Positions 8,942-22,562 of a DNA stretch of 64,000 nt are shown here, in pieces. The translations under genes and the position numbers were made by a program. The notes under the pieces were generated by a model. That model had not been told where the DNA came from and did no database searches. It was given only the letters and a program-made list of their open reading frames with translations. Position 1 is the stretch's first letter, and every line of letters begins with the position of its first letter. The stretch covers positions 434,001 through 498,000 of the forward strand of contig JABTUS010000001.1 of NCBI GenBank assembly GCA_015075305.1. The letters are read 5' to 3'. The stretch comes from Opitutaceae bacterium (GTDB lineage Bacteria; Verrucomicrobiota; Verrucomicrobiia; Opitutales; Opitutaceae).

Positions 8942-10342
8942 TTACGCTCCGTGTGCGGTATTCTCGATGACGGGCCGCCCCCCCCCGGCCTGACCAGCGG
9001 GAACCGCTGCCTTTGCAGGTTGGGACTTCATAAAGAGGTGCCGCAGAATGCAGAGTTGATTGAAGAGAAAGAGGCCGGTGCCAGCCGCCAGCACCGATGC
9101 GCCCGCAACGAGCCAGGACGCCTCCAATGTCCAGGTCCCGCACGCGAGCGGAACCACGGCAAGAAACTGCAGCAGAAGCCCGGCGCGCTCCGCCCAGCGC
9201 ACTCCCAGCGCGCTGGCAAGAGGAACGCGCTCGCGTCCAACCCGCGGTCCATAGGCTCGCATCCAGGTGAGAAAGGGCACGATCTTGCCCATCATGCCTG
9301 AAAAGCATGGCAGCATTCCCCCGATGACGATGATCACTGCGTAAAACATCGCGCTCATGCCACCGCTCGCGGATCCCCCGGTTGACCCCGGCCAGACCAG
9401 CGCCAGCCCCACAATGCCTGCGACAAACAGCACCGCGATTCCCAGAAAGAAGGCCTGAACCCCGGGATCCAGCGCGCGCTTCTTCCGGGTCCCCAGAACG
9501 CGTCGCAGCGCATAAGCCGAGCACGCCAGACCGCTCAGGAGCAGAACTCCCATCGCCGTCTCGACCCAGGCCGCGCGCAGGAGCAGCGCCGGCAGCAGGC
9601 CGATCAGCGCGATCTGCGTCATCCAGAATCCCCGCGTCGGCAGTTTCCAGTCATGCACATCGCCAAGCGTGAACATGGGGACAAGCTGGAAGGTCACACC
9701 CTGCAGCAGGGTGACAAAAAAACCCGCAATCCCGGCATGCGCGTGCGCACGGAGCAGGACCACCGGATCGAGCGGGATGAAATACCAGAACCGATTGGCC
9801 GCCAGCGTGAGCCCGATGAGCAGCGTGATCACGAGCCAGATTGCGGAGACCCGGAGCGATGTCGAAATGAGCCCGGGCCGGCCGGCCTGGCGCACAGTCA
9901 CCCAGATGTTGCGAACATAGACACCGGCGCCGATCGCCACGAGAAGTCCGAAATGGCCGACTTGCTCCAGATTCCAGAACCAGAAGCTTGCAACCATGCC
10001 CGGCACACCGATCGCATGCATGCCGAAATGCCACCAGCCCTTGCGTTCGCTCGACAGCGTGGTGCCCAAGGCCACGGGTGCCAGTTGATAGGCGGCTCCA
10101 CACGCGACTGTCAGGAAAAATCCGAGCAGCCAGGCATGGGTGAGCGCAACCACATGCGGATGCGTGTGCGGCAGCGCAAGCAGTCCGGGACGGAGAAGCA
10201 GGAGGATCGCCCCGGCGGCAAGCCAGGCCAGGGCAAGCCCCATGAATGCGAGCGGCAGTTTGCCCTGTGCGGCAAGCCAGCTTCCGTGCTGGGCGGGAAC
10301 TTGTGAGGGACGGGAGCTTGCTGCGGGCAAAGGCTGACTCAT
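8942..10342 (-). CDS. Polytopic membrane protein, heme-copper oxidase subunit I-like / NnrS-like
   Basis: A 466-aa integral membrane protein with about 12 hydrophobic segments. Two histidine-rich helices stand out: ALTHAWLLGFFLTV and RAHAHAGIAGFFVTL, reminiscent of heme-ligand helices in the heme-copper oxidase superfamily and in NnrS-type proteins of denitrifiers. A later segment GKIVPFLTWMRAYGP is also distinctive. The frame is open to 10591 but overlaps the DUF2249 gene; ATG 10342 starts a hydrophilic leader just before the first helix. It is third in an operon with SCO, DUF2249 and DUF59 genes behind an Fnr-type box, so it probably acts in NO or N2O metabolism or in cofactor delivery. No binuclear-centre histidine pair can be proven here. 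Confidence 0.7.
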   Translation of the reverse strand: MSQPLPAASSRPSQVPAQHGSWLAAQGKLPLAFMGLALAWLAAGAILLLLRPGLLALPHTHPHVVALTHAWLLGFFLTVACGAAYQLAPVALGTTLSSERKGWWHFGMHAIGVPGMVASFWFWNLEQVGHFGLLVAIGAGVYVRNIWVTVRQAGRPGLISTSLRVSAIWLVITLLIGLTLAANRFWYFIPLDPVVLLRAHAHAGIAGFFVTLLQGVTFQLVPMFTLGDVHDWKLPTRGFWMTQIALIGLLPALLLRAAWVETAMGVLLLSGLACSAYALRRVLGTRKKRALDPGVQAFFLGIAVLFVAGIVGLALVWPGSTGGSASGGMSAMFYAVIIVIGGMLPCFSGMMGKIVPFLTWMRAYGPRVGRERVPLASALGVRWAERAGLLLQFLAVVPLACGTWTLEASWLVAGASVLAAGTGLFLFNQLCILRHLFMKSQPAKAAVPAGQAGGGRPVIENTAHGA

Positions 10343-10391
10343 CGAATGGATCAATGCGATAGGCGGGCTCTGGATGAAGTTGGCCCGGAGA

Positions 10392-10958
10392 TTATGCGCG
10401 CTTGAGCATCGTAATCCAGCTTCCATCCGCCTGGGCGCGGCAGTCATGACTGAAGCCACGCTGACGGGCCTCTCCAAAGAGATGGCAGGGCTCGCGGTCG
10501 GTCCAGGCGCGGAGCTGGTGACCCGCCGGCAGCGATTCCAGCGCCGCAAGGATCCTGACCAACGGCTCCGGGGGCTCGAGCCCGCGGGCATCGACCTGCA
10601 GCGTCAAGCCATCGCCGGCCGCCGTGTTGCCCTTGGATGCGACCGCCGGCACGGTGCCCGGCTGGCGCGGGGGCGGCGGGGTGACGGCGGCGGTCTTGGT
10701 GATGCGCACACGAAACTCCTCCGGTCCCTCCTGCAGGTAGGTCCATGAAAATGCCCCGGCACACTGGGCCTGGAATTGATAGTAGAGCGGCACCGGATCA
10801 TGGTCGTTGAGCAGCACGAATGAGCCTCCGACCGGAAGGTCATACCAGCGCTGGAATATGCGAGCGTGCTTTTCACGCCCGGGAATGATGCGCACGTCAA
10901 AGACGTCCGCGCTTTCGGGTGAACCCGCGGTTGATTCAGGGGATGTATTCGTGTTCAT
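10392..10958 (-). CDS. Tandem DUF2249 domain protein
   Basis: A 188-aa soluble protein with two DUF2249 modules. The first spans roughly residues 15-90 (FDVRIIPGREKHARIF, NDHDPVPLYYQFQ); the second is C-terminal (LQVDARGLEPPEPLVRIL, DREPCHLFGEARQRGFSH). A proline-rich linker (PPPPRQPGT) separates them. DUF2249 proteins recur in denitrification and nitric oxide loci, but their biochemistry is not settled. ATG 10958 was preferred because it directly precedes the first domain; an in-frame ATG at 10997 is possible. It follows the SCO gene by 53 bp and precedes the membrane protein by 49 bp, in one probable operon. Confidence 0.82.
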   Translation of the reverse strand: MNTNTSPESTAGSPESADVFDVRIIPGREKHARIFQRWYDLPVGGSFVLLNDHDPVPLYYQFQAQCAGAFSWTYLQEGPEEFRVRITKTAAVTPPPPRQPGTVPAVASKGNTAAGDGLTLQVDARGLEPPEPLVRILAALESLPAGHQLRAWTDREPCHLFGEARQRGFSHDCRAQADGSWITMLKRA

Positions 10959-11011
10959 GGCGTCAAAAAATGAGCTGGCTTGTGTCTTGAAACGCATGCC
11001 TGGAATTCCGA

Positions 11012-11884
11012 TCAGCGGGCGTGACCCGGCGGCGCATTGAGCAGTGAAAAAACCTCGTCGACCTTCCAGCCGTTTCCCCGCCAGATTTCGAGAATGCGCC
11101 CGTCCGGTCCGATCAGCGCCGTGCAAAGCGTGTGGTCGAGCAGCACGCCCTTGCGTTCGGTGAAGACCGAGAATCGGCGGGCCAGCATGGCAATCTCGTC
11201 TGACGTGCCGGTCGCAAAGTTCCAGATCGCAGGGTTGGCGCCGACGCCTTTTCCATAGGCCGCGAGTTGTGCCGGACGATCGAACTCCGGATCGAGCGTG
11301 ATGCTCAGCAATCGCAGCCCGGGTGCGCCGCTGCCGACCGATTCTTCATTCTCAATCCGGGACTGGATCGCGGCGAATTTCAACGCCATGGCCGGGCAAA
11401 ACTCCGGCACCGGGCAGCGGGTGAAGATGAAGGTGGCCAGCGTGTATCGACCGCGAAGCGTTTCAAGGGTGAGGGATCGATCGCGTTCGTCACGGAGTGC
11501 GACCGGCGGCATTGCATCGCCCGCTCGAACTCGTGCGACCGCGGCCGCGGGTGCGGGTGTCGGCGGCGTCTCCCTGCCGAGCAGTTCGAAGCGATCCACC
11601 ACCCAGTTTTCACCGTCGCGCTGCAGACGGAAGCGCACGCGATCGCCCGCCTTCAATTTCGCTCCCTCTTCAGGATAGGCCAGATCAAAGGCCATGGTCA
11701 TCGGAGCCATGAAGCCGGGGATTTCATCGTGCGCTATCAACAGGCTTGTCGCGGACAGCTTTTCCCGAACAACGCCCGTCACCCGGTGGGATCCGTCAGC
11801 CGGCGCCTTCGAGCATGACACCTGCGCCGCGGCCGCCAGGCCGAGCAGAAGCATGACAGACAACCGGCTCCGCAGGACGTTCAT
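11012..11884 (-). CDS. SCO1/SenC copper protein with N-terminal CusF-like domain
   Basis: A 290-aa exported copper protein. After a lipoprotein-like signal (cysteine near residue 24, SCSKAP) comes a CusF-like metal-binding segment (IPGFMAPMTMAF, residues about 55-66), then a thioredoxin-fold SCO domain with the copper-site region FTRCPVPEFCPAM and a later conserved histidine in LDHTLC. SCO proteins load copper into CuA centres. Here the natural client would be the CuA site of NosZ or an oxidase. The gene is divergent from the nosZ remnant and heads a four-gene operon. An Fnr/Dnr box is centred 41.5 bp upstream of its ATG, with a TAGGAT -10 at 11891-11896, which predicts a leaderless transcript. 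Confidence 0.9.
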   Translation of the reverse strand: MNVLRSRLSVMLLLGLAAAAQVSCSKAPADGSHRVTGVVREKLSATSLLIAHDEIPGFMAPMTMAFDLAYPEEGAKLKAGDRVRFRLQRDGENWVVDRFELLGRETPPTPAPAAAVARVRAGDAMPPVALRDERDRSLTLETLRGRYTLATFIFTRCPVPEFCPAMALKFAAIQSRIENEESVGSGAPGLRLLSITLDPEFDRPAQLAAYGKGVGANPAIWNFATGTSDEIAMLARRFSVFTERKGVLLDHTLCTALIGPDGRILEIWRGNGWKVDEVFSLLNAPPGHAR

Positions 11885-11918
11885 CAGCCGATCCTAGCAC
11901 TGATTCGCCCATCACGCC

Positions 11919-11932
11919 TTGATGCATGTCAA
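11919..11932. promoter_or_regulatory. Fnr/Dnr-type box upstream of the SCO operon
   Basis: TTGATGCATGTCAA matches the TTGAT-N4-GTCAA form of Dnr/Fnr boxes. Its centre (11925.5) is exactly 41.5 bp from the A of the SCO start codon on the minus strand, the classical class II activator distance if transcription starts at that A. The minus-strand hexamer TAGGAT (11891-11896) lies at -12 to -7. The Crp/Fnr regulator encoded at 16730-17437 has the ExxSR recognition helix that reads TTGA half-sites. Confidence 0.75.
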
Positions 11933-11970
11933 GCTGTGCGGATTTGATCCGGCGCGGCCTCAATCGCGTT

Positions 11971-13244
11971 TGCTTGATGCATGTCAAGGCTAAAAACGGC
12001 ATGGTGTCCGGCGTGCGGGTCGACCCACAGACCGGAACCATGAGCGTCGGATGGCAGATCCTCACACCGCCGTTCGACTGGGACCTCGGTTCCACCGGCA
12101 AGGATCCCAGCGAGGGCTGGGCCTTCTGGACATCCTACAACACGGAGATGGGGCACGAAACGCTTGAAGCCACATCGACGCAGGCGGAGCGCGACTACGG
12201 CGCGGTTGTCAACTGGAAGGCCGCCGAAGCCGCAGTGGCCGCCGGCAAGGCTGACATGCTGGACGGAGTGCCGATGATTGATCCGGCAAAGGTTCCCGGA
12301 GTTCTCTATTTCCTGCCAATTCCGAAGTCACCCCACGGCATCGACACGGATCCGTCGGGCCGCTGGATCGCCGCGAGCGGCAAACTGCAGCCCATGGCTT
12401 CCGTCTTTGACTTCAACAAGATCAAGGCGGCGATTGACAACAAGGATTTCGAAACCGAATTCCGGGGCGTGCCCGTCATTCGATACGAGTCCGTGCTCGA
12501 GGGCTCCGTGCCGGTCGGCCTTGGCCCACTGCACACGCAGTTCGACGGTCGCGGAAACGCATACACATCCCTGTTCATCGAGTCCGTCGTCACCAAATGG
12601 AATCTGCCTCCGTGGAGCGCAGAGGAGAAGGCCGACCTCAACAAGGTCATCCTCGACAAGATGGACGTGCACTACAACATCGGGCACCTGGTGGTCGGCG
12701 GCAGCGACACGACCAAGCCCTTCGGAGACTACCTTGTCGCCATGAACAAGCTGTCGAAAGGGCGCCACATCTCAGTCGGCCCGGCGCAACCCGAATCGAG
12801 CCAGTTGATCGACATCACGGGTGACAAGATGGAGATGCTCTACGAAACCTTCACGGAACCCGAGCCGCATTTCGCGCAGATCATCCGCACGGATGCGGTC
12901 AAGGCGATCGAGGTCTATCCAAGGGCCGAGAACAGGCATCCGCATGCCGTCTGGGAGGCCAAGGACACCAGCGTCGTCCCCGCAAGGGAAACCAGGTCGA
13001 GGCGAAGATCATGGCGATCCGGAGCCGCTTCACTCCCGACCGCATCGACGCACGCGAGGGTGACGAGCTGATCATCCACGTCACCAATGTCGAGCAGACG
13101 ACCGACATGATCCACGGCTTCGCGATTGTTGAACACGACATGAACGTGGTGCTGGATCCCGGTGAGACAAAGACGATCCGCGTCAAGCTGAACAAGGCCG
13201 GCGTGTTCCCGTTCTATTGCACGAACTTCTGCTCCGCGCTCCAC
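11971..13244 (+). pseudogene. nosZ: Nitrous oxide reductase NosZ, decayed (5' and 3' truncated, frameshifted)
   Basis: Remnant of the copper enzyme that reduces N2O to N2 in the periplasm. The sequence resembles clade II NosZ (FDWDLGSTGK, GWAFWTSYNTE, GLGPLHTQFDGRGNAY, KMDVHYNIGHL, EPEPHFAQI). Three lesions are visible. The N-terminal third, with the signal peptide and the first CuZ histidines, is missing. An extra CC near 12977-12980 shifts the frame, so the CuA domain (HGFAIVEHDMNV, YCTNFCSALH) is read only from the second frame. The reading then leaves NosZ right after CSALH, losing the CuA methionine and the C-terminus. A functional enzyme is not expected. An assembly fault cannot be ruled out without reads. 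Confidence 0.85.
11974..11987. promoter_or_regulatory. Second copy of the Fnr/Dnr-type sequence, inside the nosZ remnant
   Basis: An identical TTGATGCATGTCAA lies 55 bp from the first, within a shared 16-bp direct repeat (CTTGATGCATGTCAAG). Here it is also readable as part of the nosZ coding frame (LMHVK). No -10-like hexamer lies at the matching distance on the plus strand, so it may be a deletion-junction relic or a chance coding copy rather than an active operator. Confidence 0.4.
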
Positions 13245-13259
13245 CCTTCGAATTATGCC

Positions 13260-13877
13260 ATGCGTGATTTTCTTCGTCGTGAAATCTTCTTTCTTCGCCG
13301 TCCGCTGAACCTGTTTTCGCGGATACTCCTGCTCGCCGCCGCGGGCCTGCTCGTGGCAGCCGCGTTTCTTCCGCTGTGGAAGATCCATCTCGTGGCGCCC
13401 CAGTACCGGGAGGGGCTGGCGCTCAACATCTACAGCTACCAGTTGATCGGTGGCAACGGCGGCCAGGACCTGCACGAGATCAACGCGCTCAACCACTACA
13501 TCGGCATGAAGACGCTGTCCGAGGTGGACTTTGCCGAGATGAAATGGATGCCCTTTGCCCTGGGCGTCTTTGTGATCCTGGCCCTGCGCGCCGCCGTCAT
13601 CGGTCGCATGGCCAGCGTCATAGACCTGGGTGTGCTCTTCCTGTACTTCACCCTGTTCTCACTCGGGAACTTCTACTACCGGCTGCACTCCTACGGGCAC
13701 TCGCTCGATCCAACGGCTCCCATGACAATCTCGCCGTTCACTCCCGTTGTCATCGGCAGCCAGAAGATCGCCAACTTCATCCAGACCAGCCTGCCCCAGA
13801 CGGGAGGCTACCTTCTCGCCGCCTTCCTGGTCCTGATCTTTGCCGCGGGCTGGAACTCGCGCCGGGAGGTGCCGTGA
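13260..13877 (+). CDS. Nos-cluster-associated four-helix membrane protein
   Basis: A 205-aa membrane protein with hydrophobic segments near residues 20-37, 100-118, 125-145 and 180-197. Conserved-looking text includes LPLWKIHLVAPQYREGL and EINALNHYIGMKTLSE. Comparable proteins sit beside nosZ and nosD in clade II nos clusters; their function is unknown to me. The ATG at 13260 is the last start before the first helix. The open frame continues upstream without a stop into the CuA part of the nosZ remnant (from 13011), so an in-frame fusion with NosZ residues is also possible. Its stop overlaps the GTG of nosD by 4 bp, indicating translational coupling. Confidence 0.7.
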   Translation: MRDFLRREIFFLRRPLNLFSRILLLAAAGLLVAAAFLPLWKIHLVAPQYREGLALNIYSYQLIGGNGGQDLHEINALNHYIGMKTLSEVDFAEMKWMPFALGVFVILALRAAVIGRMASVIDLGVLFLYFTLFSLGNFYYRLHSYGHSLDPTAPMTISPFTPVVIGSQKIANFIQTSLPQTGGYLLAAFLVLIFAAGWNSRREVP

Positions 13878-15172
13878 AAATCCTGGGGATTCTTGTGCTG
13901 GGTCTCGCCGCTTTGGCGAACGCGCAGGGATTCACCGCGGGCGAAGCCCTCCGCGCGCGCCTCGCCGCGGCGGTGCCGGGTGAGCGCATCGTCGTTCAGT
14001 CCGGTGTGTACGAGGGCCCCTTCACAATCGAAAAGCCGGTTCACCTGCTCGGAGAAGCGGGCGCGATTTTGCAGGGGGATCAGCAGACCCACATTGTGGC
14101 GGTTCGCTCGCCGGATGTCGAAATCGCGGGCTTCACCCTGCGCGGCTCAGGGAGGGCACTTGGGAGGGATGACGCGGCCATTCACATCACCGGCGCACGC
14201 GCAATCATCCGCAACAACCGCATTCTCGACAGCCTTCACGGCATCTACGTGCGGCGCGCCGACGACTGCCGCATCGAAAACAACACGATCATCGGCGACG
14301 GCGCCGTTGCGGAAAGCGTTGCCGATCCGGCGTTGTCCTCGCTGAAGCCCGGCGAGGCCGAACTGTGCGACGTCGAAAGCTCGCAGGACCGGCGCGGCAA
14401 TGGCATCCATCTCTGGAATTCCCGCGGGCACGTGATCACGGGCAATGTCATTCAGGGAACGCGAGATGGCATCTACTTCTCCTTCGCCGACTCCACACTC
14501 GTGCGCCACAACACGATCGTCCGCGTCCGTTATGGCCTGCACTACATGTACTCCGACGACAATACGTTCGAGGAAAACACCTTCTCGGACAACGCCGCCG
14601 GCTCAGCGCTCATGTACTCCATGGGCATTGTCCTTCGCAGGAACTGCTTTCATGCGAACCGCAGCCATCGCGCCTACGGCATTCTTTTCCAGTCGGTCGA
14701 CAATACGGTCGTCGAGGGAAACGACATCGATGGCGGCAACACCCTGGGATTCTACCTGGAGAATTCCAACGCGGTCGTTGTGCGCGACAATCGCATTTCA
14801 CGCAATTACGTCGGCCTTCGTGTGAGCGACAGCACGTCAGGGAGCACGTTTGTGGAGAACCGGTTCAGCGGAAACGTGCACTCCGTGGAAACCACGGGGT
14901 CCAATCATGCGAACCAGTGGTCGGTCGCAGGACGCGGAAACTATTGGGAGAGTGCGATCGTACTGGACCTGAATCGCGATGGAGTCGGGGACATCCCCCA
15001 CCGGGAGTCTGACCTCTTCGGCCCCTGGCGCCGCACATTCCCCGCAATCGGCCTCTTGTCAGCAGCGCCAGGCGAGCGGCTGCTTCGTTTCGTTCACAGC
15101 AGAATCGCGCTTCCAGGGATCCCGGGAACCACCGACCCGCATCCCTTGGTCAAGGCGAAGGCCACACCATGA
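13874..15172 (+). CDS. nosD: NosD periplasmic copper-site maturation protein
   Basis: A 432-aa exported right-handed beta-helix protein of the NosD family, needed with NosF and NosY to build the CuZ centre of N2O reductase. A signal peptide (MKILGILVLGLAALANAQG) is followed by many parallel-helix rungs (for example IIRNNRILDSLHGIYVRRAD and VIQGTRDGIYFSFADS). The GTG at 13874 is chosen because GGGAGGT lies just upstream, it overlaps the preceding stop as GTGA, and it starts the signal peptide. The frame open from 13376 is a shadow of the upstream gene. The stop overlaps the ATG of nosF, so nosD and nosF are coupled. The gene looks intact despite the broken nosZ. Confidence 0.93.
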   Translation: MKILGILVLGLAALANAQGFTAGEALRARLAAAVPGERIVVQSGVYEGPFTIEKPVHLLGEAGAILQGDQQTHIVAVRSPDVEIAGFTLRGSGRALGRDDAAIHITGARAIIRNNRILDSLHGIYVRRADDCRIENNTIIGDGAVAESVADPALSSLKPGEAELCDVESSQDRRGNGIHLWNSRGHVITGNVIQGTRDGIYFSFADSTLVRHNTIVRVRYGLHYMYSDDNTFEENTFSDNAAGSALMYSMGIVLRRNCFHANRSHRAYGILFQSVDNTVVEGNDIDGGNTLGFYLENSNAVVVRDNRISRNYVGLRVSDSTSGSTFVENRFSGNVHSVETTGSNHANQWSVAGRGNYWESAIVLDLNRDGVGDIPHRESDLFGPWRRTFPAIGLLSAAPGERLLRFVHSRIALPGIPGTTDPHPLVKAKATP

Positions 15173-15879
15173 TCCTTGCATTCGATCTGAGAAAGTCGTT
15201 CGGCTCACGCCACGTGCTCTCCGGTTTGACACTGGAGATTCAGCCTGGCGCCGTCACCCTCCTTGTCGGTGCGAATGGCGCCGGCAAAACCACGGCGATG
15301 CGCTTGATCGCCGGGCTGTCCAAACCCGACGCTGGAACCATTTCCCTGTCAGGACGAGACCTCCTGCGGCGGCGAGGCGAGGCGCTTTCGCAGATTTCCT
15401 TTCTTCCGCAGGCCCCGCGTTTCCATCCACGCCTTACGGTGAGGCAGACGACTGAATTCTACGCGTGCCTCAGGGGGCGCACGATGGAAAACGTATCAAC
15501 TGCTCTCGACGTCTGGGGTGTGAGGGAGTTCGCGGATGCACCCACCGGAAAGTTGTCTGGCGGCCTGCGGCAGCGTCTCGCCCTAGCAATCTTCGCACTC
15601 GCCGAGGCGCCGATCCTCCTGCTCGATGAGCCCGGGCTGAGTCTCGATCCCGGGTGGCGCGAGCGGCTTCAGCAGTTTCTTCACGCACAGGCGCGCCGCG
15701 GATGCACGGTCCTGGTTGCCACCCATCTGCTCGGCGAATGGGAGGGTCGCGTCGATCGCTGCCTGCTTGTGGATCAAGGACGGGTGGCCGGTGAACTTCC
15801 ACCGGATCGCCTTCGCGAAGCCTTTCCCGAACTCCGTGGCATGGAGTCACCACAAGGTCTGGCGCGAACCTGTGCCTGA
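15169..15879 (+). CDS. nosF: NosF ABC transporter ATP-binding protein
   Basis: A 236-aa ABC ATPase that drives the NosY membrane subunit in NosZ maturation. Walker A GANGAGKTT (near residue 39), signature LSGGLRQR, Walker B ILLLDEPGLSLDP and the switch histidine in VATHLL are present. Its ATG overlaps the nosD stop by 4 bp, and nosY follows after 34 bp. In a nos setting this is confidently NosF rather than a general exporter ATPase. No damage is visible. Confidence 0.92.
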   Translation: MILAFDLRKSFGSRHVLSGLTLEIQPGAVTLLVGANGAGKTTAMRLIAGLSKPDAGTISLSGRDLLRRRGEALSQISFLPQAPRFHPRLTVRQTTEFYACLRGRTMENVSTALDVWGVREFADAPTGKLSGGLRQRLALAIFALAEAPILLLDEPGLSLDPGWRERLQQFLHAQARRGCTVLVATHLLGEWEGRVDRCLLVDQGRVAGELPPDRLREAFPELRGMESPQGLARTCA

Positions 15880-15913
15880 GGCGCCGTTCGCCAAATCCCA
15901 TTTTCAACCAGTC

Positions 15914-16726
15914 ATGAATTCTGCTGTCCACATTCCCGCCTTTTCCGGTGTCGCCGGCGCGGCGCTGCGCCGTGAGTGGGTGAGCCACCGGTTGAACCGG
16001 TTCCTGCATGCGCACTTGCTGCTGGTTGTCACCGCGGGGTTGCTTCCGCTGCTCACACCGGAAACCGGCCTCGCTCGCGGTGCGGCATGGTGGCTCCTGC
16101 ACGCGGTGCTCTATGCAGTGTCGCTCTCCGCGCTGCTGCTCGGTCTCAGTTCGGCCCAGGCGGAGTCCGAGGAATTCGTGTGGCTGCTCGGCCAGCCGGC
16201 GGGCATCGGACCATGGCTGGCGGGAAAAGTGACTGGCTTGATGGCCATGGCGGGAGGCTCCGCCCTGCTCCGGGGTCTTCCGGTGACACTGCTTGGTGGC
16301 GGATCATACCCCTTGATGCTTGCGACTCTTGGCGCTGTCGGTGTGGCGGGTCTTTGCGCGATGATCGGGCTCGCGATCGGATTCTGGATACGGGACAGCG
16401 TGAGAGGCCTGATCGCCGCGATTGCGGCCTGGCTGCTGCTATTGTTCGGTGTCGATCTGATCCTGCTGGCCTCTGCGGGCGCACCATGGGTGCAGCAGCA
16501 TCCGGATCTTTGGGTGGCAGCCCTGATGCTGAACCCCCTCGACGCGTACCGCGTCACCATCCTGTTTGCCGTCGAAAACGCTGCGTTTGGCGGACTCCAG
16601 GCCGGCCGGCTGACCGCCTGGTGGATCCGGCACGCGGAACTCTGGCTGTCCGTTTCCGTCGTGGCGGGATCAGCCCTCGCATGGCTCGCAAGCTGGTGCG
16701 GCGCACGCCGCCGCGTCGACGGCTAG
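15914..16726 (+). CDS. nosY: NosY ABC transporter permease
   Basis: A 270-aa membrane protein with about six hydrophobic segments (for example HLLLVVTAGLLPLLT, LLHAVLYAVSLSALLLGL and LIAAIAAWLLLLFGVDLILL), as expected for the NosY permease of the NosDFY complex. The C-terminal LNPLDAYRV segment is typical of the family. The ATG at 15914 removes the overlap with nosF found in the longer frame from 15716. It converges with the Crp/Fnr gene, with only 3 bp between the stops. No terminator is visible in that gap. Confidence 0.88.
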   Translation: MNSAVHIPAFSGVAGAALRREWVSHRLNRFLHAHLLLVVTAGLLPLLTPETGLARGAAWWLLHAVLYAVSLSALLLGLSSAQAESEEFVWLLGQPAGIGPWLAGKVTGLMAMAGGSALLRGLPVTLLGGGSYPLMLATLGAVGVAGLCAMIGLAIGFWIRDSVRGLIAAIAAWLLLLFGVDLILLASAGAPWVQQHPDLWVAALMLNPLDAYRVTILFAVENAAFGGLQAGRLTAWWIRHAELWLSVSVVAGSALAWLASWCGARRRVDG

Positions 16727-16729
16727 AGA

Positions 16730-17437
16730 TCAGGTTTCGCTGTCCTTGTAGCGATGGAGTCCCGCCGGATTGATGACATCGATCCGCCGTCCGGCAACCT
16801 CGATGATGCCCTCTGATCGGAACCGGGCAAAAGTGCGCGAAAGCGTTTCACTTGTGACCCCGAGCTGGCCCGCCAGAACCTTCTTGCTCACCGGCAGCTC
16901 AAAACTGCTTTGTTCGCCGGCGTGGTGCAGGATCCAGTCTGCGAGACGGACTTCTATCTGCTTGCCCTTGAGATCGTGCAGGCTCTGCACGAGGTGCTTC
17001 AGGTGCAGGCTCATGGAGGCTAGCATGTGCAGTGCGAGTTCGGGCTTGCGGCAGACCAGCTCGCGAAAATGGGCGCGGCGGACCATCACGACCTGGGACG
17101 TTTCCAGCGCAACGGCATTGGCGGGATAGGCCTCGAGGGTCGCCAGTGTGACTTCGGCAAAACTCTCCGATTCCTGGAACACGCAGATGATCTGTTCCCG
17201 TCCATCGGAAGTCAGCCGGTAGACGCAGATGCGGCCGGTCTGAACGACATAGAAGCCCTCGGACTTGTCGCCCTGCCTGAAAAGAAGTTCATCCTTCTGC
17301 AGGGAGCGAAGGGTGCAGCCAGCCGCGATCGCGGCGATGTCCTCCTGCTTCAGAACCGCAAACATGCGGCTCTTTCGTAGTGTCGCGACAATGGCTGCGG
17401 TGCGCAGTCCTTGAATATCAGAAGTTGGCACGGCCAT
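16730..17437 (-). CDS. Crp/Fnr-family regulator, Dnr-like
   Basis: A 235-aa transcription factor with an N-terminal cyclic-nucleotide-type beta-roll (FRQGDKSEGFYVVQTGRI), a dimerisation helix (LHMLASMSLHLKHLVQ) and a C-terminal winged helix (LAGQLGVTSETLSRTFARF). The recognition helix has ExxSR, which contacts TTGA half-sites in Fnr. The N-terminal cysteine cluster that holds an Fe-S centre in Fnr is absent, so an NO- or heme-sensing Dnr-type role fits the nos setting better than oxygen sensing. A matching box lies 24 bp upstream of its ATG, which could allow autoregulation, and another controls the SCO operon. Confidence 0.9.
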   Translation of the reverse strand: MAVPTSDIQGLRTAAIVATLRKSRMFAVLKQEDIAAIAAGCTLRSLQKDELLFRQGDKSEGFYVVQTGRICVYRLTSDGREQIICVFQESESFAEVTLATLEAYPANAVALETSQVVMVRRAHFRELVCRKPELALHMLASMSLHLKHLVQSLHDLKGKQIEVRLADWILHHAGEQSSFELPVSKKVLAGQLGVTSETLSRTFARFRSEGIIEVAGRRIDVINPAGLHRYKDSET

Positions 17438-17751: not shown

Positions 17752-18366
17752 AGTTGAAATCGGCCGAAGGTGTACGCCATCGCCGAAAATCGCTGAAGCG
17801 GCTTGACCTCATTCCATGGTTTTCCTTCGACCCACGACGGTGGGAGGCATAAGCATATTCGCATCGCATGGTCATTCGTCGAATGGACGCTCTCTGCTCC
17901 GAAAGCCACCGCCAATCCTCCGATTTCGCCAACCACCGCTTTCGCGCGCTTGATTACGCAGTGCCAATTTGGGCTTCATTCTCCCAGCTTCCCGAGACAC
18001 CCTGTACCGCTCTGCCCTGCTCTTAGACCCCGGGCGGACCTCAACGCCAGACCATATCGGCGCTTCGGTGCTGCCCACGATGTCCCAACACCGCAGGCTC
18101 CCCCTATTTTGAGCATTTCGGGGCTCGTTAACACGGCTTTGCAGTTCGCTGCCTACGCTTGAAGACGCCGTTTCCGGTCGCCAGCCAAGGCTCGCTTCCG
18201 GCTGCCGGTCAGGCTTTGCCGGGCGGGTCGGTTCCCGCAGGGTCTCCTTTGAGACTTTCCTTCGCTCCTTCCTTTTCATTTTCCTTTCTTTGTTCAGTTT
18301 GGGCGCTTTCCCGTCTCATCGGGCTTTCGCTGGCGCCATGGGACAGGCTCTAGTTGGCGAAGTCGG
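17752..18366. other. Non-coding junction between the nos block and the Rhs/IS island
   Basis: No credible gene is seen in this 615-bp stretch. Open frames on either strand are arginine/serine- or proline-rich and lack domains. It contains short GC-rich inverted segments around 18170-18240 and a pyrimidine-rich run near 18250-18300. It ends where homology to the IS4 element begins. Confidence 0.5.
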
Positions 18367-18643
18367 GATAGGTGAGCTGTGCGAAGACCATCGTGGCAAA
18401 GTGATCGTAAGCGGAAAGCGCCGGAGTGTCGCGACGCATTGGATATCGCGAGGAGCAACGCGAAAACTCTTTCCCGCTGATGCCTGCGAGCACTTGGGCC
18501 AGAGCAGTTTTGCCGGTATTCATCCGCGAAATAGCGGACCACTTGGCCCAAGAAATCAAATCGATGACACATCAAAATCATCGTTAATCGCTATTATTAA
18601 ATGCGTTAGGAATGCCAGAATCACCCCAAGTCAGACAGCCGTG
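18367..18643 (-). mobile_element. Truncated left end of an IS4-family element
   Basis: About 277 bp homologous to the first 273 bp of the IS at 20053-21331, in inverted orientation. It includes the terminal CACGGCTGTCTG (minus strand) and the first ~60 codons of a transposase that is less damaged here than in the longer copy (MNTGKTALAQVLAGISGKEF). Homology stops at ...LTYP; the frame then ends within a few codons. Confidence 0.8.
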
Positions 18644-18670
18644 GCACCGACCCCGTGGAAATCACACGTG

Positions 18671-19150
18671 TTACGGAATGATTTCTCCAACCGCGCCAAG
18701 TATCGTGGCTTTCATCTGCCGCTCTAAAGCACGTGAATGAGACTTATAATTCTCCTTGTCGATATAGAAAACAAATGGGGGCTCTAGCCATGGATAATAG
18801 GCGACGCAAAACTCTCCTCCTTCTTCCGCAATTACGACATATGCGATGCCCCTTGGTATTGGATCGCCAGGTTTCCACCTCTCCAACGCTCTCCTCCAGC
18901 TCCGCAACTCTTGCTCAAGTTGAGCATTCCCATTGTCTGATTCTGAAATATAATTTTCTATAGATTTAATCTTTGTCTCGATTAGCGCCCGGTTTGCCGC
19001 ATCTATTAGTTTCCCAAGTCGAAGTGTAGAGTCGGAAAGTATCAACAGGAGAATCTCAGGAGTGTTGCTCGATTGCTGAGGTTTCGATCGAACTGAGAGA
19101 GTCAAAGCGCATGTAACAATCACGATCAACAATATAACTTTTACTTGCAT
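18671..19150 (-). CDS. Candidate immunity protein of Rhs module 1 (hypothetical, exported)
   Basis: A 159-aa protein I do not recognise. A hydrophobic leader (MQVKVILLIVIVTCALTLS) looks like a signal peptide or membrane anchor, followed by a charged, partly helical body (ALIETKIKSIENYISESDNGNAQ region) and a C-terminal FYIDKENYKSHSRAL segment. Its ATG lies 8-10 bp inside the 3' end of the toxin-like Rhs tip, so the two would be translated together, the usual order for a toxin and its immunity gene. The function is inferred only from position. The leader suggests protection in the periplasm or at the membrane. Confidence 0.6.
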   Translation of the reverse strand: MQVKVILLIVIVTCALTLSVRSKPQQSSNTPEILLLILSDSTLRLGKLIDAANRALIETKIKSIENYISESDNGNAQLEQELRSWRRALERWKPGDPIPRGIAYVVIAEEGGEFCVAYYPWLEPPFVFYIDKENYKSHSRALERQMKATILGAVGEIIP

Positions 19151-20052
19151 CCAAGCACCTTTCTCGTTTCTCGAAATGACATGTCGTATTTCTTCCCACC
19201 AATTGCTCCATAAAAGCGTTTTGTTTGCCCATCGAATGCTCCTCCGAAAACGGGATATCCACCTGCAGGCCCACCGGAAACGAAATTCTTTTTATTTCCT
19301 AGGTTGCGAAAATCAGCATCTGATAGACCAATATTCCCACCGGGGTCGTTTGGATGCGTGTGAAATTGGTAGTAGAAAGTCAGAAGATTGCCATCAATCA
19401 TCTGCGATGGTGAGGGAACCGGCACATAGTAACGTGTCGTCGGTCGCTCGTTTGGTATTTCCACTGGCTGCGGTGGCCCAGTAAAGGGTGTAAAGTCTCT
19501 CAAGTACGCATTCTCCCCGTTCCAAGCGATCAATGGTCCCTCTTTCCCACCCATGACACTTGGCTGCCCATTAGCATAATCTGCGCTCGTCAGCGAAAAT
19601 TCTCTGTAGAAATTGAATCCGCCTTCTGTGTCTTGAATACCGTAGTAGTGATCGAATTTGTTTGGATCAAGGAATGACTCGCAGAGTGATTTCTTGAGGG
19701 TCGCAGACATATTTTCCAATATGTTCTTGGCCTGTTCCTTGGGGTTTCGAGAATTCTTTGGAGGATCGTCTGGCGGTGGTGTTTCGGGATCAGTAGGGTA
19801 AAAGTTTGGCCCCTGCGATTGTTGGGATAGTCCATCGCTATAGAATCTTCTCCCGCCACCGATAGACTCATTTACTTCAAATGGATCCATTTTGTTTTCC
19901 TTTTCCGTTGGCGGTATTGGATGAGGCGCATCCGGATCGTCCACACAGTTCCCTTTACCATCATAGCGAGAATTGAACGGGCAAGCGTGCTCTCCATCAC
20001 CTACATCATAAAAGCCGACGGGAATTGCGGGATTCTCCTTGTGGGTATCACC
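19141..20052 (-). pseudogene. Detached Rhs C-terminal tip with JAMM/DUF4329-like HTHP domain (module 1)
   Basis: About 300 codons that were once the C-terminal tip of an Rhs protein. Near the C-terminus is FHTHPNDPGG...LSDADF, matching the HxHP-x(n)-SxxD pattern of JAMM-fold metalloproteases and DUF4329-type Rhs tips. The frame is open upstream into the IS4 element (to 20313), but the first authentic residues are GDTHKENPAIPVGF. An IS at 20053-21331 separates the tip from its Rhs core; an internal ATG at 19890 could still start a short product. A candidate immunity gene overlaps its 3' end. Confidence 0.72.
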
Positions 20053-21331
20053 CACGGCTGTCTGAATTAGGTTGATTCTGGCGTTTCTAAGACATTTGAG
20101 AATAGCGATTAACGATGATTTTGATGTGTCATCGATTTGATTTCTGGTATGATCGGATCCGCTATTTCGCGGATGAATACCGGCAAAACCGCTGGCCCGG
20201 CGCTCGCAGGCATCAGCGGGAAAGAGTTTCTCGCGTTGTCCTCGCGATATCCAATGCGTCGCGACACTCCGGCGCTTCCGCTTATTGATCACTTGCCACG
20301 ATGGTCTTCGCACAGCTCACCTATCGCGAGAGCCTGCGCGACATCGAGGTCTGGTTTGAATGCGCGTCGAGGGTTGCTTTATCATGCCGGAATTCGCGGC
20401 ACGGTGAAACGCTGCAACTGCTTACGCGAACGAGCATCGCGACTGGCGCCTGTTCGCCGAAGTGGCGGAAGGGTTGATGCGCTGGCGCGACGGATGTATG
20501 CGGGCGATCCAACGCCGCTCGACTTGACGCCGATCTGTTCGCGTTGGATGCGACGTTGATCGAGCTGGAGCTTTGCGCTGTTTCCTTGGGCCCGCTGGCA
20601 GGGCACGCAGGCGGCGGTGAAGCTCAACGTGTTGCTGGATTTCGAGGCCGATCCGCCCGCCTTTGCCAGCTTTGTACGAGGGCGACCGGCACGAAGTCGC
20701 CCGCTCGACGAGATCCCGGTCTGTCCTGCGCCTATTACGTGATGGATCGTGGATATCTGATTTTGCGCGCCTGCACCGGCTGCACGCGATGGGTGCCTCG
20801 TCACCCGCCTCAAGACCAACACCTGCTTACGTGGCCTCGTCGCGACCGGTCGCACCGACCACCGGCTTTGCGTTGGCGATCAAACCATCCGACTCAACTC
20901 CTCGAAGGGCCGACGCTGCTATCCAGAAGCGTTGAGGCGCATCAGCTATATCGATCCCGAAACCAAATTGCGGCTCATCTTCCTGACTAATCAGTTTGCG
21001 CTCGATCCGCTCACCGTGGCGCTCATCTACAAACATCGCTGGAAAATCGAGCTGTTCTTTCGCTGGATCAAACAGCACTTGCGGCTGCGCGGCTCTTCAG
21101 CACCGATCCAAACGGCGTGCGCGCAAATCTGACGGCCCTGTGCGCCCACCTGCTGGTGGCCATCGCCAAACGCGAAAACGCCCCTGCCTGGCACCTACAT
21201 CAAGTTTTGCAAATTATCTCGATTGCCGCCTTGAGAAAGTCTCTGCCAGAGCTATTTGCAAAATTCGATACAACGAACCATACTATCGATACAAGTATCC
21301 AGTTGAAATCAACGGTTCTGATCAGACAGCC
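20053..21331 (+). mobile_element. IS4-family insertion sequence with 10-bp target duplication, decayed
   Basis: A 1279-bp element flanked by direct repeats GGGTATCACC at 20043-20052 and 21332-21341. The ends share the inverted sequence GGCTGTCTGA. It interrupts the Rhs gene of module 1 between core and tip. Deleting the element and one repeat copy puts the codons of ...WDTLGQAYGDT back in frame with HKENPAIP. The transposase inside is frameshifted, so the element is probably not autonomous. Confidence 0.88.
20173..21325 (+). pseudogene. IS4-family transposase, multiply frameshifted
   Basis: Recognisable from ATG 20173 in several frames: IRGTVKRCN near 20390, the second catalytic aspartate segment YYVMDRGY near 20740, TKLRLIFLTNQFALDPLTVA near 20965 and the IS4 signature Y-x2-R-x3-E-x6-K in YKHRWKIELFFRWIK near 21030. 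At least four frame changes are needed to read it through. The N-terminal codons carry a small deletion relative to the fragment at 18367-18643. It is a relic of a DDE transposase. Confidence 0.85.
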
Positions 21332-21341
21332 GGGTATCACC

Positions 21342-22562
21342 ATATGCTTGTCCCAATGTATCCCAACGACTGACTCCATTGTTTCCAGTAAACCCATACA
21401 GATTGATCCCTCCCTTCTCCCCAATTGGATCCCTTCCAATAAACCGCCCATTTCTGGCGTCATAGTGCCTTCGCCCATAATACGACCAACCCGTCTCCGC
21501 GTCCCGCCACTTGGTCGAGAACTTGAACGCATACGTGCTGACCGCGTTGTCCAGCACCTCATCGCGGAGCATTTCGCCGAATGGGGTGTATTCGTAGGAC
21601 GCGGCGAGGGCTCCGGTGCCGAGGCTGACGAGCGACGCCACGTTGCCGTTGCCGTCGTAGGTCGGGTAGGTCTCGCCGGTCGGCGTGTTCGCAATTGCAG
21701 CAGGGCACCCACGCCGCCAGCCTTTGTCAGCGATGACGCAAGGTCAATGCCCCACGCATACGTGCGCTGGAGCTTGTCCAGCGTCGCCCGCCGCCACGGA
21801 ATATTCCGCGATCACATCCCAGCCGTTGTAGATGAAGCGTTGGGAGGACAGTTCCGTCGAGGTGACGCCGTCCATCACCTGTTTCTGGACGCGGCGTCCG
21901 AGGTAGTCGTACGTGAAATTGAGGATGCGATGCGCAAAACCGGCGCTTCTGGCGGCGACGGCTGTTTCCAAACGGACAAGGCGGTTCTCGGCGTCCCACT
22001 GGTAGTCCCAGATACCATCCGAGAGCGTGTTGCCATCGAGGTCGTAACTGAAGCTCTGCGCCACCGCGGGCAACTGCGCCGCCCGCGAGTCGATGCGCAT
22101 CACATTGCTCCCGCCCGCGGACTTCGTGGCGTAGACCGACAGCGGCCCCGCCCACGGACCGAGCACGTTCGAAACCGTCACCTCGTCGCTCCAGAACCGC
22201 CCCTGCCGCCCGGCCGTCACCGTGCGGCCCTTGACCGCCACCACGGCATCGGTGGTCGCCGTGCCTGAGAGGGAGAGCGTGTTGTTCTCGCGTGCCACGT
22301 ACTGGTTGAGCGCATTGGCCGTGTAGTCGTCGCGCAGTCCGCTCACGCCGGTGCTGTTGGACCACTGCCGGTTGCCGATGGAATCGTAGGCGTATTCATG
22401 GCGGCGACCCGGCAGCGGCGCGACCTGGCTGGTCACATTCGTGCCAAGGTAGCCGATGCCCGCGGTCAGTTCGCCGCGGCCATTGTAGGCAAATTGGCGG
22501 TTTGAGGCTTCACCAAAGTGCGCGTGGCCGGAGCCCCCCGTCTTGGAGCATTCATGGCTATC
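21342..22562 (-). pseudogene. Rhs core C-terminal fragment (module 1), frameshifted
   Basis: About 400 codons of Rhs/YD-repeat core: HEYAYDSIGNRQWSNSTG, FSYDLDGNTLSDGIWDYQWD and DAENRLVRLET, ending with the Rhs hallmark GRFIGRDPIGEKGGINLYGF. The 5' part is missing; an in-frame TGA lies just before DSHECSKTG. At least two frameshifts are apparent against the paralogous copy at 24135-25327: a 2-nt loss near 21783 and a 1-nt loss near 21694. The gene originally continued into the tip at 19141-20052. It is a displaced, decaying toxin-delivery gene end. Confidence 0.85.

Follow-up and report, generated by a model that had tools for sequence, protein, structure and literature searches.

Disrupted nosZ beside open accessory nos genes in an Opitutaceae genome: a probable recent loss of N2O reduction

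The nos locus and its neighbours

The window (the whole stretch of Opitutaceae DNA that was analysed, 64,000 nucleotides) carries a clade II nos accessory cluster, in which nosB, nosD, nosF and nosY lie beside what is left of a clade II (Sec-dependent) nosZ (Table 1). Three genomes of the same genus served for comparison: G005, where nosZ is whole, and G007 and G008, where it is open and in each case split over two contigs. All three keep the locus open and collinear, and positions 9020-17085 of the window follow G005 throughout apart from two deletions. The four accessory genes, the SCO gene, the DUF2249 gene and the Crp/Fnr-type regulator gene are open frames that align with those of the congeners. 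The name nosB was given by position and membrane character, and for the nosY-like permease searches of Pfam and NCBIfam gave no family. In a wider search of contigs a single locus was matched, in a Verrucomicrobia MAG, at 74% identity.

Two flanking regions were also observed. On the minus strand at 8942-10342, a membrane protein with no match in Pfam or NCBIfam is kept beside nos in the three congeners at about 80%, and distant relatives of it occur in two congeners that have no nos genes. Positions 17800-22000 hold few convincing genes, and several fragments there resemble, by eye, Rhs-type repeat proteins.

Table 1. Features of the nos locus, in window coordinates
Feature	Position	Strand	Remarks
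DUF2249 protein, intact	10392-10958	-	PF10006; 81-84% identical in three congeners
SCO1/SenC protein with CusF domain, intact	11012-11884	-	PF02630, PF11604
FNR-type box 1, TTGATGCATGTCAA	11919-11932	.	Lies towards the divergent SCO gene; box pair also 55 bp apart in G005, G007 and G008
FNR-type box 2, predicted box of the nos promoter	11974-11987	+	Identical in G005, G007 and G008
Junction of 1165-bp deletion	11988-11994	+	Azurin-like gene, probable -10 and nosZ codons 1-196 missing
nosZ remnant, frame one	11995-12978	+	TIGR04246, 415.3 bits; PF18764, 116.7 bits
Frameshift	12979-12983	+	Two extra bases relative to G005
nosZ remnant, frame two	12984-13244	+	TIGR04246, 122.1 bits; ends at CSALH of the CuA site
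Junction region of ~125-bp 3' deletion	13245-13259	+	Comparison with congeners
nosB-like membrane protein, intact, 205 aa	13260-13877	+	91-94% identical in three congeners
nosD, intact	13874-15172	+	TIGR04247, 363.7 bits (cut-off 300)
nosF-like ABC ATPase, intact	15169-15879	+	PF00005; collinear with relatives
nosY-like permease, intact	15914-16726	+	84-86% identical in three congeners
Crp/Fnr-type regulator, intact	16730-17437	-	PF00027, PF13545

Three lesions in nosZ

What remains is the central portion of the gene together with most of its C-terminal region, and in alignment it covers residues 197-612 of the 630-aa NosZ of G005. The profile for Sec-dependent NosZ (TIGR04246, 578 positions) is matched over two successive frames, the first covering positions 161-478 and the second 481-567, and each scores under the curated cut-off of 625 bits; the intact NosZ of G005 scores 833.8 bits. 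A sequence-only reading of this DNA had placed the damaged gene at 11971-13244. That end stands, and the start must be moved to 11995, as 11974-11987 is a conserved promoter box. Its description of a nosZ that has lost its 5' third and its 3' end and carries a frameshift was borne out, since all three lesions could be measured against G005, G007 and G008.

The first lesion is seen in the distance from FNR-type box 2 to a fixed nosZ codon: each of the three congeners has 1258 bp and the window 93 bp, so that 1165 bp are missing at the 5' side. This deletion took an azurin-like gene, the probable -10 element and nosZ codons 1-196. In G005 the azurin-like gene lies at L011:9688-10224 and scores 90.7 bits against TIGR02695, for which the cut-off is 105.1. 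Elsewhere in the genome of the window (contig C1, 390532-391023) there is another azurin-like gene, which shares 52% identity with the deleted one. The second lesion is the 2-bp frameshift. The third is a deletion at the 3' side, where the distance from the CuA-site motif CSALH to the nosB start codon is 15 bp, compared with 139-140 bp in the congeners. Thus, the statement that the neighbours of nosZ are intact holds for nosB, nosD, nosF, nosY and the SCO, DUF2249 and regulator genes; it does not hold for the azurin-like gene and the probable -10, which are deleted.

These are disabling lesions in a gene that relatives keep intact at the same place, and in that sense nosZ is a pseudogene here. 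The first 196 residues, and with them any N-terminal Sec signal, are deleted. Using G005 numbering and the CuZ histidines and CuA ligands as we take them to be, His 109, His 110, His 159 and Met 615 all fall outside the remnant, which leaves it short of three of the seven CuZ histidines and of the CuA methionine. Judged by its predicted product, the gene could not conceivably yield a functional N2O reductase.

An intact copy elsewhere could still supply the enzyme, and a search for a second full nosZ had been among the checks proposed with the sequence-only reading. It was made with the nos_propeller family, a full clade II NosZ and the clade III lactonase-type NosZ, and none was found in an assembly that is 97.6% complete. 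The nos_propeller search of the genome gave one match only, the remnant. Searched with the 630-aa NosZ of G005, the genome gave both parts of the remnant and, next to a ba3-type oxidase gene, a single weak match (29% over 59 residues, E 0.0143); the missing 5' part was found nowhere else. For the clade III model (NF052460, cut-off 700 bits), the best score in the genome was 69.3 bits, from the remnant itself, and two further loci reached 31.0 and 20.8 bits. An intact nosZ within the missing 2.4% of the genome is possible but unlikely. Among the other genomes, one contig (G189, C11) carries two full-length open nosZ frames about 146 kb apart.

A different reading, also raised from the sequence, is that assembly or sequencing is at fault and that the cell carries a full nosZ. 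The genome is a draft of 17 contigs, and in two of the three congeners (G007 and G008) contigs break inside nosZ (L012, L013, L014 and L064), which shows that assembling this gene can be difficult. However, this reading requires a single gene to carry three separate faults, far from the ends of a contig of 1,045,970 bases. At the 5' junction the BLAST pieces lie 4 bp apart, and at the 3' junction they overlap by 10 bp (G005) or not at all (G007 and G008). Such short gaps and overlaps argue against a long repeat behind a collapse, and the rest of the assembly does not contain the missing 5' part of NosZ. A fault confined to one gene is disfavoured, and we consider it unlikely.

The nos promoter and the accessory genes

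Two FNR-type boxes precede the remnant. The pattern TTGATNNNNGTCAA has two matches in the 64 kb, compared with 0.13 expected, and the pair thus exceeds chance. Such boxes presumably bind FNR-type regulators, and we take the nos promoter to be FNR-dependent from the consensus of such boxes. In G005, G007 and G008 the motif TAnnnT lies 23-28 bp after box 2. This position was picked on the three congeners, and five more distant relatives formed the test; it held in five of five, and so in eight of eight intact relatives overall. In contrast, none of six other boxes upstream of nosZ in those relatives is followed by TAnnnT at that spacing. In the window the same six positions read GGCGTG, and no TAnnnT occurs within 40 bp of box 2. 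The predicted box is present and the -10 sequence at the fixed spacing is absent. If box and -10 act together as a promoter, then the 5' deletion has probably truncated the nos operon promoter. Within the remnant, a weak promoter-like site at 12251-12278 scores 9/12 (mean of shuffles, 0.1) and might still drive the accessory genes.

The lost -10 bears on a second alternative, namely that NosB, NosD, NosF, NosY and SCO are kept by selection for a use of their own, such as copper supply to a nitrite reductase or an oxidase. The five genes are open, and their rate of change at conserved columns is no higher than in an intact congener (6 and 8 of 551). A candidate client is also encoded. The copper nitrite reductase NirK (contig C2, 489535-490431) scores 358 bits, above its cut-off of 296.3; towards its C-terminus it has a weak match to a cytochrome c family (ccoP, 34.8 bits), which suggests a fused haem domain. 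Six loci of the COX1 family (L033-L038) were found, five of them above the cut-off: NCBIfam assigned one to the aa3 and one to a fused cbb3 type, comparison with PDB entries placed two nearest cbb3 and one nearest ba3, and one was left unplaced. By the same two comparisons no nitric oxide reductase was recognised among the six, although NirK is present.

Other evidence weighs against a separate use. In a sample of 57 genomes, one per species, nine have nosB, that of the window included, and nos_propeller is found in exactly these nine. Within the genus, nosD is found in only four of ten genomes, namely that of the window and the three with an open nosZ, and the remaining six have neither nosD nor nosZ. 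Accessory genes without nosZ sequence were thus seen in no case, whether by nosB in the 57 genomes or by nosD in the genus, which speaks against a role apart from nosZ. Additionally, the recognisable promoter of the operon is gone, and a recent loss would in any case leave the accessory frames open. The proposal that the accessory system now serves another copper enzyme is thus not upheld by these comparisons, and we regard it as very unlikely.

The 3' deletion has one further consequence, in that it joins the CuA remnant to nosB in frame and leaves an open frame of 288 aa at 13011-13877. The open frame would allow a new fusion protein. However, its predicted product lacks the CuA methionine, no export signal precedes the cupredoxin part at the N-terminus, and the probable promoter has gone; that it works as a protein is scarcely credible.

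Constraint on the remnant and the probable loss of N2O reduction

Change was counted at columns that do not vary among five outgroups. The window has changed at 14 of 265 such columns in nosZ and at 6 of 551 in nosB, nosD, nosF, nosY and SCO (Fisher p 0.0009); the control, G005, taken as an equal-age partner in a paired substitution test, has changed at 4 and 8 of the same columns. With G008 as the partner, the window has 14 changes in nosZ and 7 in the accessory genes (p 0.0014) and G008 has 5 and 10. For nosZ alone, the window differs from its partner with p 0.031 (14 vs 4, G005) or 0.064 (14 vs 5, G008), and the two-by-two comparison of nosZ with the accessory genes gives p 0.068 (G005) and 0.090 (G008). 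When one to three outgroups were used instead, p ranged from 0.10 to 0.85 over six runs. When more intact NosZ were included, the window differed at 2 of 122 strictly invariant columns, and the congener pieces at 0 of 123, 0 of 87, 0 of 62 and 1 of 77. Residues private with respect to NosZ from outside the genus number 18 of 415 in the window and 9 in G005, and several distant intact NosZ have more.

The extra amino-acid change in the remnant is therefore modest and hinges on the choice of outgroups. Pairwise dN/dS was rejected as a measure: the values for the window nosZ (0.064-0.080, against 0.020-0.031 among congeners) are high only since the window branches earlier, and the paired test is the fair comparison. 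The slight excess of change is a further point against an assembly fault, although substitutions alone do not prove the lesions real. A relaxation signal this weak points to constraint having been off for a short time only, if at all before the deletions, and after so recent a loss whole accessory genes are to be expected.

Of the readings offered from the sequence, the evidence most favours a recent loss of N2O reduction, because nosZ is represented by one locus, the congeners are open and collinear, the lesions are three and separate, and metal ligands and the promoter -10 are lost. We infer, with a probability of about 0.85, that this is a genuine, recent nosZ pseudogene, that N2O reduction has been lost, and that the accessory genes are leftovers that have yet to decay. 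One deletion would have brought nosZ codon 197 up against the FNR-type box of the azurin-nosZ promoter; the probable -10, the azurin-like gene and the first third of nosZ would have gone in the same step. The frameshift and the second deletion at the 3' end would be further damage, in whatever order. With no N-terminus, only four of the seven CuZ ligands left and one CuA ligand missing, any product would be unable to reduce N2O, and nosB, nosD, nosF and nosY, having no promoter -10, are probably poorly expressed.

Whether bacteria are sinks or sources of N2O, the greenhouse gas that the enzyme lost here destroys, is often read from their genes. With nosD, nosF, nosY and a long nos_propeller match, quick annotation would call this bacterium an N2O reducer despite its dead nosZ. 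The locus also illustrates one route by which N2O reduction may be lost, in which a single deletion takes the start of the catalytic gene together with the shared promoter. If the accessory genes were truly kept by selection, NosB, NosD, NosF and NosY would have a use not known at present.

A literature search, with subscription journals mostly outside its reach, found no publication on this locus. Its nearest counterparts are the clade II nosZ-nosB-nosD-nosF-nosY clusters of the same family (G005, G007, G008, G012-G015 and G031), which have homologous accessory genes and an FNR-type box upstream, the gene order being collinear with the window in the three congeners. These clusters differ in that nosZ and the -10 are intact, and the azurin-like gene is also seen in the three congeners. 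Accessory genes with no adjacent nosZ are described in Bacillus azotoformans, where nosDYF clusters without nosZ occur along with three other clusters that have it (PMC3475470); no such further nosZ cluster was found in the genome of the window. A further likeness is offered by Methylacidiphilum. Apart from M. caldifontis IT6, members of this genus, M. fumariolicum among them, are reported to carry accessory nos genes without nosZ, and the authors suggest loss after acquisition (PMC11102522). Both cases thus combine accessory nos genes with the lack of a working nosZ, but nosZ is absent in Methylacidiphilum, whereas the window keeps two thirds of the gene and its lesions can still be read. Accessory nos genes that outlive nosZ have accordingly been reported before (PMC11102522), and the present locus is a further example.
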